64,000 nt of DNA from Planctomycetota bacterium (GTDB lineage Bacteria > Planctomycetota > Planctomycetia > Pirellulales > Thermoguttaceae): NCBI GenBank assembly GCA_029550925.1, contig JAKPGL010000064.1:1-64000 (forward strand), written 5' to 3'. The notes under the pieces were generated by a model that was not told the origin of the DNA, did no database searches, and worked only from the letters and a program-made list of their open reading frames with translations. Within the stretch, counting starts at the first letter, position 1. Every line of letters begins with the position of its first letter. The position numbers were made by a program, and so were the translations under genes. Positions 3,839 through 17,103 of this stretch are shown piece by piece.

Positions 3839-5089
3839 ATGAACTTCAAATCACGTCTCCAAAGAGCGAACCTTGCCTACGTTGCCCAGGCAAGGAGCGG
3901 CGCCAGATCGCCCCAGCGGGCAGAGCCACATCCAGCCCCCCAAAGCCTCCGGCAGAAAGCCGGCAGCTTCCGTTCAGCCCAATCCAGCCCGCTTTTGCCA
4001 TCCCTTTCTCGCATCGGCACTGGCTGGCTTCGATGGGCGGCGCGGGTTCTAGCCGTGATCAGCCTGGCCGGTGGGATCGGGTTTGATTGGGGGCTGAGCA
4101 GATGCTGGTCCGCTGAACCGTCTTCGCCGATCGAAACCCGACTGCTGGCCGACTGGATCCGTTCCGGCACTATTCAGGTGCATCTGGTCCGAGGCCGAGT
4201 GGAATGGGCGGCCAAGGGACATCCCGGAAGAGGCTTCGGAAGAAGCTCGAGTACCATCACTTCTGCGGGGGGACGATGGTCGGAGAGAATATCGGTCGCC
4301 GGGGGAGCGGAGAACCTCAGCCTCAGCTATGAACTGGAAAACCAGCAACAAAAGTATTCCATCTCGGTGGACCTCCAGCGATCCTTTCAGATCCAATGGC
4401 AGTCGTTGGACCCCCAATCCCCTTGGAAAATCGAACTGAGTCAAAGGCCCCGAGAGCCGGTAGCGCTGAAAGTAACCGGCGCTGCACCGGAGCGGGTCTG
4501 GAAGGCGAGCAGCTTGTGGCATTTGGCGTTTGAAGAGCCTGGAACGGTTCAAAAGTATGTTATTCCTTTGTTCGGTTCTTTCCTGCCGTCCGTATCCTTG
4601 CTGGGCCAGACAGAACAGATCCAACAGGAAATGCTGCGTCTGGCCGCGTTGCCTCGGTCGCCGGACCGGCCGCGATGGGAGGCCCTGGTAGCCCAATTGG
4701 CCGATGAGCAGTACAGCCGCCGAGAAGCCGCCGACCGGGCGCTGCGCCAGCAAGGTTCCGCCCTCGTACCTTTTTTGCGAAGTTTAGATTGGCGTCTTCT
4801 GGACGCCGAACAGCGATTCCGCATCCGGCGGATCCTCCGAGAACTAGAGCCGCCGGGGGACGAAGATTCGCTGACCAAAGCGGCCCATTGGCTGGTGGAT
4901 GACCCGGAAATCTGGTGGATTCTTTTGGATCGGCCGGACGTGGAGACCCGACGCATCGCCGCCCAACGATTGGCCGCTCTCCTGGGAGGGCCGATCGACT
5001 TTGATCCGGAAGCTCCGCCTGAAATTCGTCAAGCCCGGCGCGCCCAACTGGAACCGAAAGTCCGCCCCAGACTGCCCGCTCCCCGCTAA
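3839..5089 (+). CDS. Unknown exported or membrane-anchored protein with HEAT-like C-terminus
   Basis: A 416-residue protein that I do not recognise. A basic N-terminal stretch of about 60 residues precedes one hydrophobic segment (about 63-85, RWAARVLAVISLAGGIG) ending near CWSAEP, so it is probably exported or anchored. The middle is beta-rich. The last 150 residues hold charged helical pairs such as RREAADRALRQQGSALVPFL and ETRRIAAQRLAALLG, like HEAT repeats seen in many planctomycete surface proteins. An ATG at 3791 would overlap rdgB; the ATG at 3839, with GGCGGA upstream, is preferred. The protein ends in a proline- and arginine-rich tail. Confidence 0.55.
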   Translation: MNFKSRLQRANLAYVAQARSGARSPQRAEPHPAPQSLRQKAGSFRSAQSSPLLPSLSRIGTGWLRWAARVLAVISLAGGIGFDWGLSRCWSAEPSSPIETRLLADWIRSGTIQVHLVRGRVEWAAKGHPGRGFGRSSSTITSAGGRWSERISVAGGAENLSLSYELENQQQKYSISVDLQRSFQIQWQSLDPQSPWKIELSQRPREPVALKVTGAAPERVWKASSLWHLAFEEPGTVQKYVIPLFGSFLPSVSLLGQTEQIQQEMLRLAALPRSPDRPRWEALVAQLADEQYSRREAADRALRQQGSALVPFLRSLDWRLLDAEQRFRIRRILRELEPPGDEDSLTKAAHWLVDDPEIWWILLDRPDVETRRIAAQRLAALLGGPIDFDPEAPPEIRQARRAQLEPKVRPRLPAPR

Positions 5090-13061: not shown

Positions 13062-14147
13062 TTAAGGGATCCGATCGATGTTCGGTTCCATCGTCGATGA
13101 TTTCTGGTTCGACCGCAGATAGCCCAGGCCCACGAGGGCCGCCAACCCCGCCAGGGCCAAGGCCCAGGTGCTCGGCTCGGGCAGGTCGCGGACGCCGAGC
13201 CAACCGCCGGCGCCGTCGGATTGAAAGATAATATACCGAACGGTGTCCGTGCCGATGTAATGCATTCCGGCGCTGAGAGAGCCGCCGCCCATAGGGGGTG
13301 CGAACTGATTGGTGTACATCCAGGCTCTTGGCCCAGCCTCCGCCGTGGCCCCCAAGATATTCAGCGAGGCGACCGCAGCCACTCCAGGATCATTCAACGA
13401 GACGCCGAACCAGTCGGCCAGGGCGGCGATGGTGGCGGGCCATGCAGGTCCCTTTGGATCATCCCAAATGGCGATATCATCCAACAGGCCGACATATTCC
13501 CCATCGTTATTCTGACCGAAAATATAGAGCGGCCTGGTGTTCGAAAGGCCATCCCCATGTTTGTAGGTTCCGGAAGTAGATAACTTCCCATCTACATATT
13601 CCCAATACTGGCCGTTCGACAACGTATAAAACACATGGTGCCATTGGCCGTCGAAAGCGGCTGTCCCTCCCATAGCGATATTCTGGTTGTATTGGCCGCC
13701 GGCGCCGGCCACCGTGTCCACCCGTACGTTCACGTCGGATGTATTCGAGTAGCGGTTTACCAGCCAAGTTCTGTCGTCGTTGCCCTCGGTACCGTGCTGA
13801 AAGATGCGGACCCAGTTGTTATTGTCAGACGCATTGGACTTCATCCAAAACGAAATGCTCAGATGATCGTCGATGGCTTCCAAGGTGGCCGAAGTGGGCA
13901 CGGCGATGACCCGCGTCGGATCGCCGCCGCTGGGATTGCTCGATGTGCCCGGTGCCAAGCCGCTGCCAAACGGTGTGTCCGTGGTAAAGAAAATATTGAT
14001 TCCCACGGTCCCGTGATTGCTGTTGCCGGAAAGGTCCGTCGCCGTACTATCGTCGAAATTGTATCGCAACACCAAACCGGCATCGGCTGTGGATACCAAC
14101 AACCCTGCCGCCACCCCGAAGGCCAATGATCGGGTAAGCAATGTCAT
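13062..14147 (-). CDS. LamG-domain PEP-CTERM protein
   Basis: A 361-residue secreted protein. The signal peptide is MTLLTRSLAFGVAAGLLVST, cut near ADAG. A concanavalin-like LamG domain spans about 25-250, with marks YNFDDSTATDLSGNSNHGTV, the strand DDHLSISFWMKSN, FDGQWHHVFYTL and YVGLLDDIAIWDD. A linker leads to the PEP-CTERM tag LPEPSTWALALAGLAALVG and a tail with Arg, Lys and acidic residues. The basic tail is longer than usual. The ATG at 14147 has AAGGATAG upstream; a longer start at 14216 would overlap the preceding gene. It lies 37 bases after the 972-residue PEP-CTERM gene, so the two are probably co-transcribed and end at the terminator at 12957-12986. Confidence 0.85.
   Translation of the reverse strand: MTLLTRSLAFGVAAGLLVSTADAGLVLRYNFDDSTATDLSGNSNHGTVGINIFFTTDTPFGSGLAPGTSSNPSGGDPTRVIAVPTSATLEAIDDHLSISFWMKSNASDNNNWVRIFQHGTEGNDDRTWLVNRYSNTSDVNVRVDTVAGAGGQYNQNIAMGGTAAFDGQWHHVFYTLSNGQYWEYVDGKLSTSGTYKHGDGLSNTRPLYIFGQNNDGEYVGLLDDIAIWDDPKGPAWPATIAALADWFGVSLNDPGVAAVASLNILGATAEAGPRAWMYTNQFAPPMGGGSLSAGMHYIGTDTVRYIIFQSDGAGGWLGVRDLPEPSTWALALAGLAALVGLGYLRSNQKSSTMEPNIDRIP
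13135..13185. repeat. 51-base PEP-CTERM tag segment, copy 1
   Basis: These 51 bases are identical to 14231-14281 in the neighbouring gene. They encode the PEPSTWALALAGLAAL part of the sorting tag. Identity at every base, wobble positions included, implies recent duplication or gene conversion. Confidence 0.9.
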
Positions 14148-14184
14148 ATTCTCTATCCTTGTCAACAAAGGATTACTTTGGTTG

Positions 14185-17103
14185 CTATTGGCCTCTACAA
14201 CGACGGGAGGAGGCAAAATGCCATCCGGCCAGGGCCGCCAACCCCGCCAGGGCCAAGGCCCAGGTGCTCGGCTCGGGCAGGGCCGCCTGGAGTTGCAAAA
14301 TCTGGCCGCCGCCGGGCGCGTCCAGGACGTTCAAGAGCCAACGGCTGTTGATCGGCGGGTCGCCCGTTACCGTCAGACCGGTGATGTCGATCGTGCCCGT
14401 AGCCGAAAGAATATTAAATCCTTCGCCCAAGCCGGGGCTGTAGCTCCCCCAAAGATCTACCAGCACTTGGCCGGCCAGCACCGCATTGCCTTGCACCGAA
14501 ACCGTATCGAAGCTGGAGAGGCTTTCGATGTCGATTTCCAGGATACCGGCGGCGGTTTGGGTGTAGTTGCCCAAAATAGCGGTTGTCCCGATGGCCGTGT
14601 CGGCCGGAGCCAGGATGCCGCCGGCATTGGTCAGGTCGAACTGGACCTGCTGGGCGTCGAGCCGACCGCCGGTGAAGTTAAACTGGCCACTAGAACCTTT
14701 CCGGAGCACATTGACATGGAGCGTGCCGCCCTGCAGGTTATAGACGCCCGGCCCATACCGGCCGATCATGATGCTGAAATCGTCCGGCGATGCCTCCACC
14801 GCCAAGGCGTTGACCACACCGCCGGTTTGGGTGAAGGTGCCCAGTTCACTTCGGCCTACCTCCATTCGCTGGCTTAAGGTGAGCGTGCCTGCGTTCATCG
14901 TGTAGGTAGAACCGGCCGAGCCGCCAAACTCCGAGATAAACAGCCGTTTGAGGTTGACCGTGCCGCCGTTTTGGACGAAATAGCCGTCGTCGCCCCGGCC
15001 AACCACCGTATGTGTGCCGTTGACGGTGAGCGTGCCGGCGTTCATCTGATAGGTGCTGCCGCCGGGAGCACCACCTCCGCCTTGCTTGTTGGCAATATAC
15101 ACGTCGCTTGCTGCCGTTACGGAACCGCCGTTTTGGATAAACCAGCCCACATCCGTGCGGCCTACTTCCATCACATCGCTGGTGGTCAGGACGCCGGCAT
15201 TCAGGGTATAGGTGGAGCCGGCCGAGCCGGTATTCTCGGCAATGTATAGGCGCCGGAGGTTGACCGTGCCGCCGTTTTGCTCCACCTGTCCAAGGCCGCC
15301 CCGGCCGATGACCGTGTATAGGCCATTGACTTGCAATCGGGCATTGTCGCCGATGGTTACCGCGCCGCTTGCGCCGGCGCCGTTAGCGACGTAGAAATCG
15401 CCGCTGGAGGCCACGCGAGCATTGCCGCTCAGGATCAGCCGGCCTTGGGTGCCGGCAGCGCCGGCCACCTGGATGCTGCTGGCGTTCAGGCCGCCAGAGC
15501 CGGTTACCGTGAGGCTGCCAGTCCCCTGCAGGTTGACCGCTCCGGTGGCTACCCCCACATCGATGACGGCATGGTCGTTGCCGCTGGGCAGAATACCATT
15601 AGTCCACAAAGAAGCGGTATTGTAATCGCCGGTAATGCCCCGCCAATGGAACGGATCGGTAGGCTCGGACACAGGGTTCAACCAGCGGACCACGATGTTA
15701 TCCAGGTCGAAGTTGGTATTGAGGCCGCCGGTTCGAGCGCCGAAGGCCACCCGGCTTTCATAGGGTGTCATGCCGGGGATGAAATAGTTAGTAAAAATCG
15801 GCGTGCCGCCGATGGTAAGCGAGACATTGGCCCCGCCGCTGACGAACTCAATCACCGCCGAGGCATGCCGGAATGCCGATCCCCGGTAATCATAGCCACT
15901 GTATTCGACCACCTGCTGGCCGTCCCAGTTGAGCGAAATATCCGAGATATTAGGATACACATCAAATCCGATGCTAAACCCGGTGGTAAACCGAGGTTCT
16001 TCCCAAGCCGGGCTGGGATTGGACACCGGACCGGTGATCCCCTCCCAGCCGGTGTTCAGCAGGGCAAAGGCGCCGCCATCGGCCCCAGCCAGAATCGAAA
16101 AATCCCACTCCGCCTCGATCCGCTGATAGAACCCCTGGGCCACCCGATCAAAGGCGATCTGGTTCGCCTGGCTGTTGGTCTGCTGGATCAGGCGAAGGTA
16201 ATTGGATGGTCTTTCGGAACCGGAAGGCGGCAAGACCTGCGGCCCTGGGGCCGAGCTATACTGATTGGCTACAAAATGGGTAGTGCCTAAGTTGTCGAAA
16301 TCTTGCATCAGAGTATTGGACGGCGGGGAGACCGTTCCCGGTGGGCTGGCTATAGGATTGGAATAGCTTACCTGGATGTTATCCAGATTGACATCCATAT
16401 TGGCCCCGCCGGTGCGGCCGGAAAATTGCACTCGGTTTTCAAACCCCGACGGCCCGTAGAAGTACTTGTCGAAAACGGTTACCGTCTGAGGTGTGCCGTT
16501 GACATCGCCGATAAGTTCCAGTTTCACATTGCCGCCCGGACCGATGGAGTTAACGGTCAACTTGGCTTGGTTCCATGTGCCGGTGGCAAAGTTCACCTTA
16601 GCCGGGTCCACATAATACCGGACAATTTCCCGGTTATCCCAATGGACGCTTAGGTGGTTGGTCCCGCTCGGATACACCCAAAAGCCGATGCCGAACACGC
16701 CAGGGGCATTGGCCGATTCCGATAGGACGGGCCCAGCCCCTGAGGTGCCATACAAGCTGGTAGGCAAAAAGGAGAACGAAAATCCATCGGCCGCTTGGTC
16801 GGCGCTATAGCCAGCAAAATCAAACTGGGCTACTATCGTGCTGTACCAGCCTGTGTCTGTGCGATCGTAGCTGTAGTGGTTCCGTTGGTTGTTGACCCCA
16901 TCGTTAATCAGGCGAAGGTACTGTCCGCTCGGCCCGCCGGAAAGGACCTGCGGCCCCGGCGCACTGCCCGATTGAGTGGCAGTAACATTGGAATTGGGCG
17001 GATCGAAATTGTCAATCAGCCCGCCGTAGGCCGATCCGACCGCCCATAATGCCACAGTAAATCCCATCCCCACTGCCAACCAGTGCAAGCGAGTGCCCAG
17101 CAT
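14185..17103 (-). CDS. Large mosaic PEP-CTERM protein with beta-helix repeats
   Basis: A 972-residue secreted protein. A signal peptide (about 1-27, ending SAYGG) is followed by two homologous lectin-like halves. Each opens with a copy of SAPGPQVL followed by YLRLI (about 45-65 and 285-310), so an internal duplication is clear. From about residue 480 there is a run of short beta-helix repeats of the passenger/autotransporter-repeat kind. GSTYTMNAGTLT-like units recur three times and GRxxxGxFxQNGG-like units at least four times. The tag LPEPSTWALALAGLAALAG with tail SSRRCRGQ closes the protein. It is likely a surface or extracellular-matrix adhesin; no catalytic motif is visible. The adjoining LamG gene shares its tag DNA. 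Confidence 0.85.
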   Translation of the reverse strand: MLGTRLHWLAVGMGFTVALWAVGSAYGGLIDNFDPPNSNVTATQSGSAPGPQVLSGGPSGQYLRLINDGVNNQRNHYSYDRTDTGWYSTIVAQFDFAGYSADQAADGFSFSFLPTSLYGTSGAGPVLSESANAPGVFGIGFWVYPSGTNHLSVHWDNREIVRYYVDPAKVNFATGTWNQAKLTVNSIGPGGNVKLELIGDVNGTPQTVTVFDKYFYGPSGFENRVQFSGRTGGANMDVNLDNIQVSYSNPIASPPGTVSPPSNTLMQDFDNLGTTHFVANQYSSAPGPQVLPPSGSERPSNYLRLIQQTNSQANQIAFDRVAQGFYQRIEAEWDFSILAGADGGAFALLNTGWEGITGPVSNPSPAWEEPRFTTGFSIGFDVYPNISDISLNWDGQQVVEYSGYDYRGSAFRHASAVIEFVSGGANVSLTIGGTPIFTNYFIPGMTPYESRVAFGARTGGLNTNFDLDNIVVRWLNPVSEPTDPFHWRGITGDYNTASLWTNGILPSGNDHAVIDVGVATGAVNLQGTGSLTVTGSGGLNASSIQVAGAAGTQGRLILSGNARVASSGDFYVANGAGASGAVTIGDNARLQVNGLYTVIGRGGLGQVEQNGGTVNLRRLYIAENTGSAGSTYTLNAGVLTTSDVMEVGRTDVGWFIQNGGSVTAASDVYIANKQGGGGAPGGSTYQMNAGTLTVNGTHTVVGRGDDGYFVQNGGTVNLKRLFISEFGGSAGSTYTMNAGTLTLSQRMEVGRSELGTFTQTGGVVNALAVEASPDDFSIMIGRYGPGVYNLQGGTLHVNVLRKGSSGQFNFTGGRLDAQQVQFDLTNAGGILAPADTAIGTTAILGNYTQTAAGILEIDIESLSSFDTVSVQGNAVLAGQVLVDLWGSYSPGLGEGFNILSATGTIDITGLTVTGDPPINSRWLLNVLDAPGGGQILQLQAALPEPSTWALALAGLAALAGWHFASSRRCRGQ
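14231..14281. repeat. 51-base PEP-CTERM tag segment, copy 2
   Basis: This is the identical partner of 13135-13185. The flanks diverge at once on both sides: the upstream protein tails differ (GWHFASSRR against GLGYLRSNQ). Confidence 0.9.

Follow-up and report, generated by a model that had tools for sequence, protein, structure and literature searches.

PEP-CTERM tags, which close surface proteins with a PEP motif, a membrane helix and a basic tail, are, we conclude, copied from one gene to its neighbour in short tracts confined to the tag itself. The case that leads to this conclusion lies in a stretch of 64,000 nucleotides (the window: positions 1 to 64,000 of contig JAKPGL010000064.1, assembly GCA_029550925.1, from a planctomycete of the Thermoguttaceae), in which two adjacent genes with unrelated bodies share a tag segment of 51 identical bases. 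The contig, 84 kb long and labelled C22, belongs to an assembly (G000) of 4,903,335 bases in 233 contigs, 97.5% complete. That tags have been exchanged recently, whatever the mechanism, we regard as very probable. The features concerned, in window positions and all on the minus strand, are as follows.

13062..14147, minus strand: gene 1, a LamG protein of 361 amino acids with a signal-peptide-like start (by eye) and a PEP-CTERM tag (Pfam and reading of the open reading frame, ORF)
13135..13185, minus strand: repeat copy in gene 1, spanning the codons of L-PEPSTWALALAGLAA and part of the L codon after them (exact-repeat search)
14148..14184, minus strand: gap of 37 bases from the gene 2 stop to the gene 1 start (ORF reading)
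14185..17103, minus strand: gene 2, a secreted protein of 972 amino acids with repeats and a PEP-CTERM tag (Pfam and ORF reading)
14231..14281, minus strand: repeat copy in gene 2 (exact-repeat search)

The two copies, in direct orientation and about 1.1 kb apart, agree at 51/51 bases, with 0 further matching bases at either end; in the 30 bases flanking them on each side, 12/30 and 9/30 agree, so that the identity with instantly diverging flanks described by the first-pass annotation of the window is confirmed. This is the longest exact direct repeat of the window (runner-up: 24 bases), and the genome search which that annotation had proposed, run with at most 3 mismatches, finds the 51-mer in exactly two places of the whole assembly, both in the window (reversed control: 0); with only these two copies, a genome-wide spread of the window tag is ruled out. 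Both copies translate in the same frame as the front of a PEP-CTERM tag, taking in the PEP motif and the greater part of the membrane helix; the basic tails of the two genes lie outside the repeat and differ, and the 51-mer, first called a PEP-CTERM tag, is not the tag as a whole. The gene bodies differ, again as first described: Pfam reports Laminin_G_3 and PEP-CTERM in gene 1 and PEP-CTERM alone in gene 2, whose body is beta-helix-like, and BLASTP of one body against the other gives a best E of 0.73. Both tags pass the curated cut-off of PF07589 (20.7 bits), gene 1 with 21.5 bits and gene 2 with 24.6 bits, and both genes have hydrophobic N-terminal starts, judged by eye without a predictor. 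The probable start of gene 1 is the ATG that begins at 14147, 37 bases past the gene 2 stop, and the shortness of this gap makes it probable that gene 2 and gene 1 are co-transcribed. The genome has one exosortase match (PF09721; G000:C173:107881-108633, E 2.5e-56).

Profile searches of G000 gave 65 matches to PF07589 and 64 to TIGR02595. Sixty-two sites were read, the weakest profile matches not among them, and two of these were dropped (C4_451, with the tag inside its ORF, and C158_27675, with no tag), leaving 60 tags that were aligned in pairs, ungapped, from the PEP motif over 51 bases. Their pairwise identity averages 0.555 (standard deviation 0.083; 99th percentile 0.77) and their longest exact run 7.9 bases; on the same PEP-anchored 51 bases the window pair has an identity of 0.98 and a run of 51.

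Evidence for a recent event comes from gene 2, as compared among three genomes of the genus (G000, G001 and G002). Its 3' end is present in both G001 and G002, and the last 133 residues of its body are 91.7% identical to those in G001; the orthologous tag reads VPEPSSLALAALGLLLLLISRSRRPAA in G001 and VPEPSTWALAGLGLVLLLLSRRLRPATQN in G002, two sequences that are alike and both unlike the window tag. Among 74 comparisons of orthologous tags (body identity at least 60%; three genomes, hence non-independent), those of the window's gene 2 are the two lowest, both ungapped (0.46 and 0.52, where the mean is 0.73) and gapped (5 and 7, where the mean is 34 and random pairs have a median of 9); the gene 2 tags of G001 and G002, compared with each other with gaps, score a normal 30. 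Because the tag is aberrant and the body follows its orthologues, the gene 2 tag was, to judge from these sequences, replaced after the species split. The proposal that a tag had moved recently between genes as a short tract is thus upheld by a gene that kept its body, and the comparison of tags with bodies that had been recommended reveals differing histories in the three species. What tag gene 2 carried before the event is known only indirectly, through its orthologues. In G002 (L128 4182-4628, on G002:C5) gene 2 is a remnant of 149 amino acids that has the tag and lacks most of the body; the gene beside it on the upstream side is the one that adjoins gene 2 there in the window.

For gene 1, neither G001 nor G002 gives a reciprocal best hit (best matches 31-32%), and therefore either its tag was copied onto gene 2 or both tags were taken from a common source elsewhere; its relatives in GTDB genomes amount to two distant loci, of no use for dating. 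In a tree of the tags, which are short (50-85 bases), the two of the window group together with support 99/100, separately from the G001/G002 pair. Within-genome copies are closer to each other than to same-locus orthologues, as expected of concerted evolution, in C22 (0.93 versus 0.46/0.52), in C154 (0.91 versus 0.69/0.76) and in C11 of G001 (0.91 versus 0.80/0.89).

The same pattern recurs when tags are compared within each of the three sister genomes (60, 44 and 41 tags). Four of the five same-strand tag pairs lying at most 3 kb apart share their tag (at least 0.9 over 48 bases):

C22: the window pair
C154_2593/4497
C181_2192/4322
G001 C11_70447/71958

Other tag pairs reach 0.9 in 2 of 3433 cases, namely C77/C49 and C181_2192/C11_11756, the latter repeating the C181 case; two near-copies at contig ends (C181_4322 and G002 C300_17328) were excluded from these non-neighbour counts, and G001 C26:9746 was unused. 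The excess among neighbours has a Fisher p of 1.3e-11, for a threshold chosen post hoc and with the window pair counted in. The 90 bases before the tag are unrelated (0.21-0.37) in three of the four shared-tag neighbour pairs; those of C181_4322 are cut by the contig end and so unmeasured, and its near-copy C11_11756 gives 0.31. Along their length, the bodies of all five sister-genome pairs that share a tag have no significant similarity (best E 0.002 to 4.7, in short stretches). The fifth neighbour pair, a tandem duplicate (G001:C91:37 and 1142; L175), is the reverse case, with bodies alike (0.87 over about 78 bases before the tag) and tags different (0.625).

In C154, C49/C77 and C11 of G001 the tag of the resident, conserved gene is normal against its orthologues (0.69-0.89), for which reason the newcomer probably received its copy from the resident; in the window pair, unlike these, the gene that changed is the conserved one. 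Such variation in direction between pairs is what conversion predicts. For the 97 tags that have an orthologue, the nearest tag is that orthologue in 60 cases; in 25 it is some other tag from a different genome, and in 12 it lies in the tag's own genome and is non-orthologous. The body of G001 C81_19784 is 77% identical to that of its orthologue, G002 C187_2290, but its tag agrees with the orthologous tag at 0.625 and with the C181/C11 tags of G000 at 0.875-0.896; it looks like a further replacement, though with no closeness known. LamG domains in all four newcomers were given no weight: 22/60 tag genes of G000 match our home-made LamG profile, which was built partly from the newcomer genes themselves.

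Our survey outside the genus took in 84 loci, best-scoring matches only and almost all of them in nine genomes that belong to other genera; 77 of these loci yielded 95 tags and 14 adjacent same-strand pairs. One of the 14 is a clear case: two genes of G012:C56, 827 bases apart, one with a DUF4350 body and the other without a Pfam body domain, have 69/69 bases in common; this tract opens one base ahead of the codon that precedes PEP and closes with the second base of the stop. A second high pair (0.92, G034) lies within one reading frame and has partly similar bodies (upstream 0.57). Tag sharing is real outside the genus, but it is not the rule. In G034:C5 (L260/L292) an ORF from 30082 on is a frame of 972 amino acids in which four PEP-CTERM tags stand in frame. 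After each of the first two comes a stretch resembling a signal peptide and then a new body, as if several tagged proteins were strung together in one chain; G034:C126 has a frame of 617 amino acids with two such tags.

The edges of the shared tracts, 44-84 bases long, coincide with the tag. The start falls at -5 to 0 from the first PEP base in 6/6 pairs; in C154, C49/C77 and G012 the end falls at or next to a stop codon, and in the remaining pairs it lies within the helix or the tail. PEP is where homology between any two tags begins, and a start that is always there is what conversion between two existing tags predicts, random fusion being less fitting because part of the donor body would usually come along. 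We lean, by a modest degree, towards conversion between existing tags as the source of the exchange. In the window, recent recombination confined to the tag would have copied tag DNA between two neighbouring unrelated genes, most likely by conversion over a short tract, limited by homology, between direct repeats that lie about 1.1 kb from each other; a template switch or similar process with little need for RecA-type homology may have been involved, and is favoured because two ordinary tags have too little in common to recombine efficiently by homology. Both proteins would, from what is known of the family, still end in a tag that suits the one exosortase of the genome. As a 51-base direct repeat, the identical tags could in principle also allow gene 1 to loop out, an event not observed; a crossover between the copies would delete gene 1 and put gene 2 in frame with the gene 1 tail (frame checked). 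Of the gene conversion or short duplication first suggested, recent movement of a short tract stands, with gene conversion, template switching and insertion of a new gene not separated; the further idea that new surface proteins are made in this way goes beyond the data, which give copying of tags between existing PEP-CTERM genes.

Several observations weigh against copying by conversion. Approximately unbiased (AU) tests on 66 columns rejected 0/5 body-like clades (p 0.20-0.43), and the mean run of 7.9 bases between ordinary tags is little to start a conversion. The remaining 12/14 neighbour pairs outside the genus stand at 0.58-0.88 and do not share their tags. Moreover, in 4/5 sister-genome pairs one partner is lineage-specific, with no orthologue of at least 60% in the sister genomes, which is more directly explained if recombination brought a foreign or translocated gene into a resident tag, or to a point just downstream of it, and left the tag flanking the newcomer as a direct repeat. 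We consider such insertion possible, if doubtful. The window tag does lie at a synteny break (the sequence after gene 2 in G001 and G002 is that of G000:C60, and the sequence after gene 1 in the window is that of G001:C45), and downstream similarity is kept in 0/7 shared-tag resident comparisons versus 10/22 and 7/18 in controls; yet half or more of the controls also lack it, so that the break may be ordinary and loss of synteny at the tag is weakened as special evidence. In alignment, the gene 1 tail and the sequence that follows are unlike the old tail of gene 2, which a Campbell-like insertion would have left behind gene 1; in C181/C11 both partners have orthologues; and a random insertion would rarely begin exactly at PEP. 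A reciprocal swap of tags by inversion is unsupported, the ORF lists of G000:C60 and G001:C45 containing no PEP-CTERM gene at either break. It is unlikely that tags serve more broadly as ports of entry, where newcomers are captured beside residents by recombination at the tag; we are equally sceptical of the corollary that each arrival leaves the same tag on resident and newcomer, the set growing and shrinking by tag-to-tag insertion and loop-out.

Duplication in tandem of a complete tagged gene, after which one of the bodies was replaced or diverged extremely, has precedents in the tandem duplicates of G001 C91 and G034 C5 and in one G012 array whose tags are alike; it is nevertheless improbable, as the bodies of the five sister-genome pairs share no significant full-length similarity and the identity stops at the tag edge with no fading. 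An assembly artefact, suggested by the fragmentation into 233 contigs, by the position of some tags at contig ends and by 135 exact bases common to the ends of C181 and C11, is highly implausible for two tags inside one contig, in open frames and with unrelated sequence on all four sides, and the pattern recurs in other assemblies (G001, G012). Constraint is less credible still: although the tag is a conserved motif rich in few codons, the first-pass annotation's own counter-proposal, that codon constraint makes all tags equally similar, is contradicted by the mean identity of only 0.555, by the divergence of orthologous tags to 0.73, and by a probability of 1.4e-7, from the codon usage of tags, that 16 codons are the same given the same residues.

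Two repeats were seen along the way. Similarity downstream of the tag between C77 and C49 was dropped as a sign of longer duplication, since it belongs to a dispersed stretch of about 140 bases whose copies, 73-83% alike, lie near PEP-CTERM genes in all three sister genomes and beside other genes:

G000:C49:7220-7364
C77:33904-34032
C208:20744-20888
L248 13455-13597

At L128 3183-3326 (G002:C5) an inverted repeat, CGACTTTTGCCATTTT ... AAAATGGCAAAAGTCG, lies between genes; more half-copies of it stand at 4019 and 7920, and it looks like a small palindromic mobile element of G002.

Few sets of proteins change as fast within their genomes as those with PEP-CTERM tags, and unrelated bodies with one genome's tag style have so far been put down to duplication and loss. 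If tracts of 44-84 bases are copied between neighbours, tag trees do not trace proteins, and one short event would be enough to fit a foreign protein to the local exosortase; the comparisons suggest that bacteria may re-tag surface proteins by very short recombination.

The PEP-CTERM/exosortase (EpsH) system (TIGR02595 / PF07589) is described, in the relevant parts of Haft et al. 2006 (PMC1569441), as one tag and one exosortase with many unrelated bodies and fast turnover of the protein set, tag trees forming species-specific clades. That paper, in which the words recombination and shuffling do not occur, ascribes the clades to paralogous expansion, duplication and loss; here, by contrast with what those parts describe, tag DNA alone is common to unrelated neighbours, and tag and body histories differ. 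Hosts have been proposed to shuffle domains of acquired ice-binding proteins, PEP C-term architectures being among those compared (PMC9957290), a proposal that in its relevant passages rests on whole domain architectures, with no donor or recipient tag at the DNA level. A cyanobacterial ice-binding protein with a PEP-CTERM signal was possibly acquired from a planctomycete (PMC7783341), the relevant passages saying nothing on the origin of the tag. We found no description of gene conversion or concerted evolution of PEP-CTERM genes, and no earlier one of tag copying between neighbours, in the open-access literature, most subscription papers being outside the search.

Conversion between babA and babB of Helicobacter, in the accounts of it that bear on this point, is likewise an exchange between related loci of one genome that alters surface proteins. 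These two genes are paralogues with long shared ends; the genes studied here, unlike them, share only a tag of 44-84 bases and have unrelated bodies. In rhs genes the variable part is the C-terminal end. Their C-terminal displacement, as set out in the relevant passages of PMC2935791, likewise exchanges modules at the C-terminus of secreted proteins; it is unlike the present case in that here the C-terminal tag is the part that is shared.

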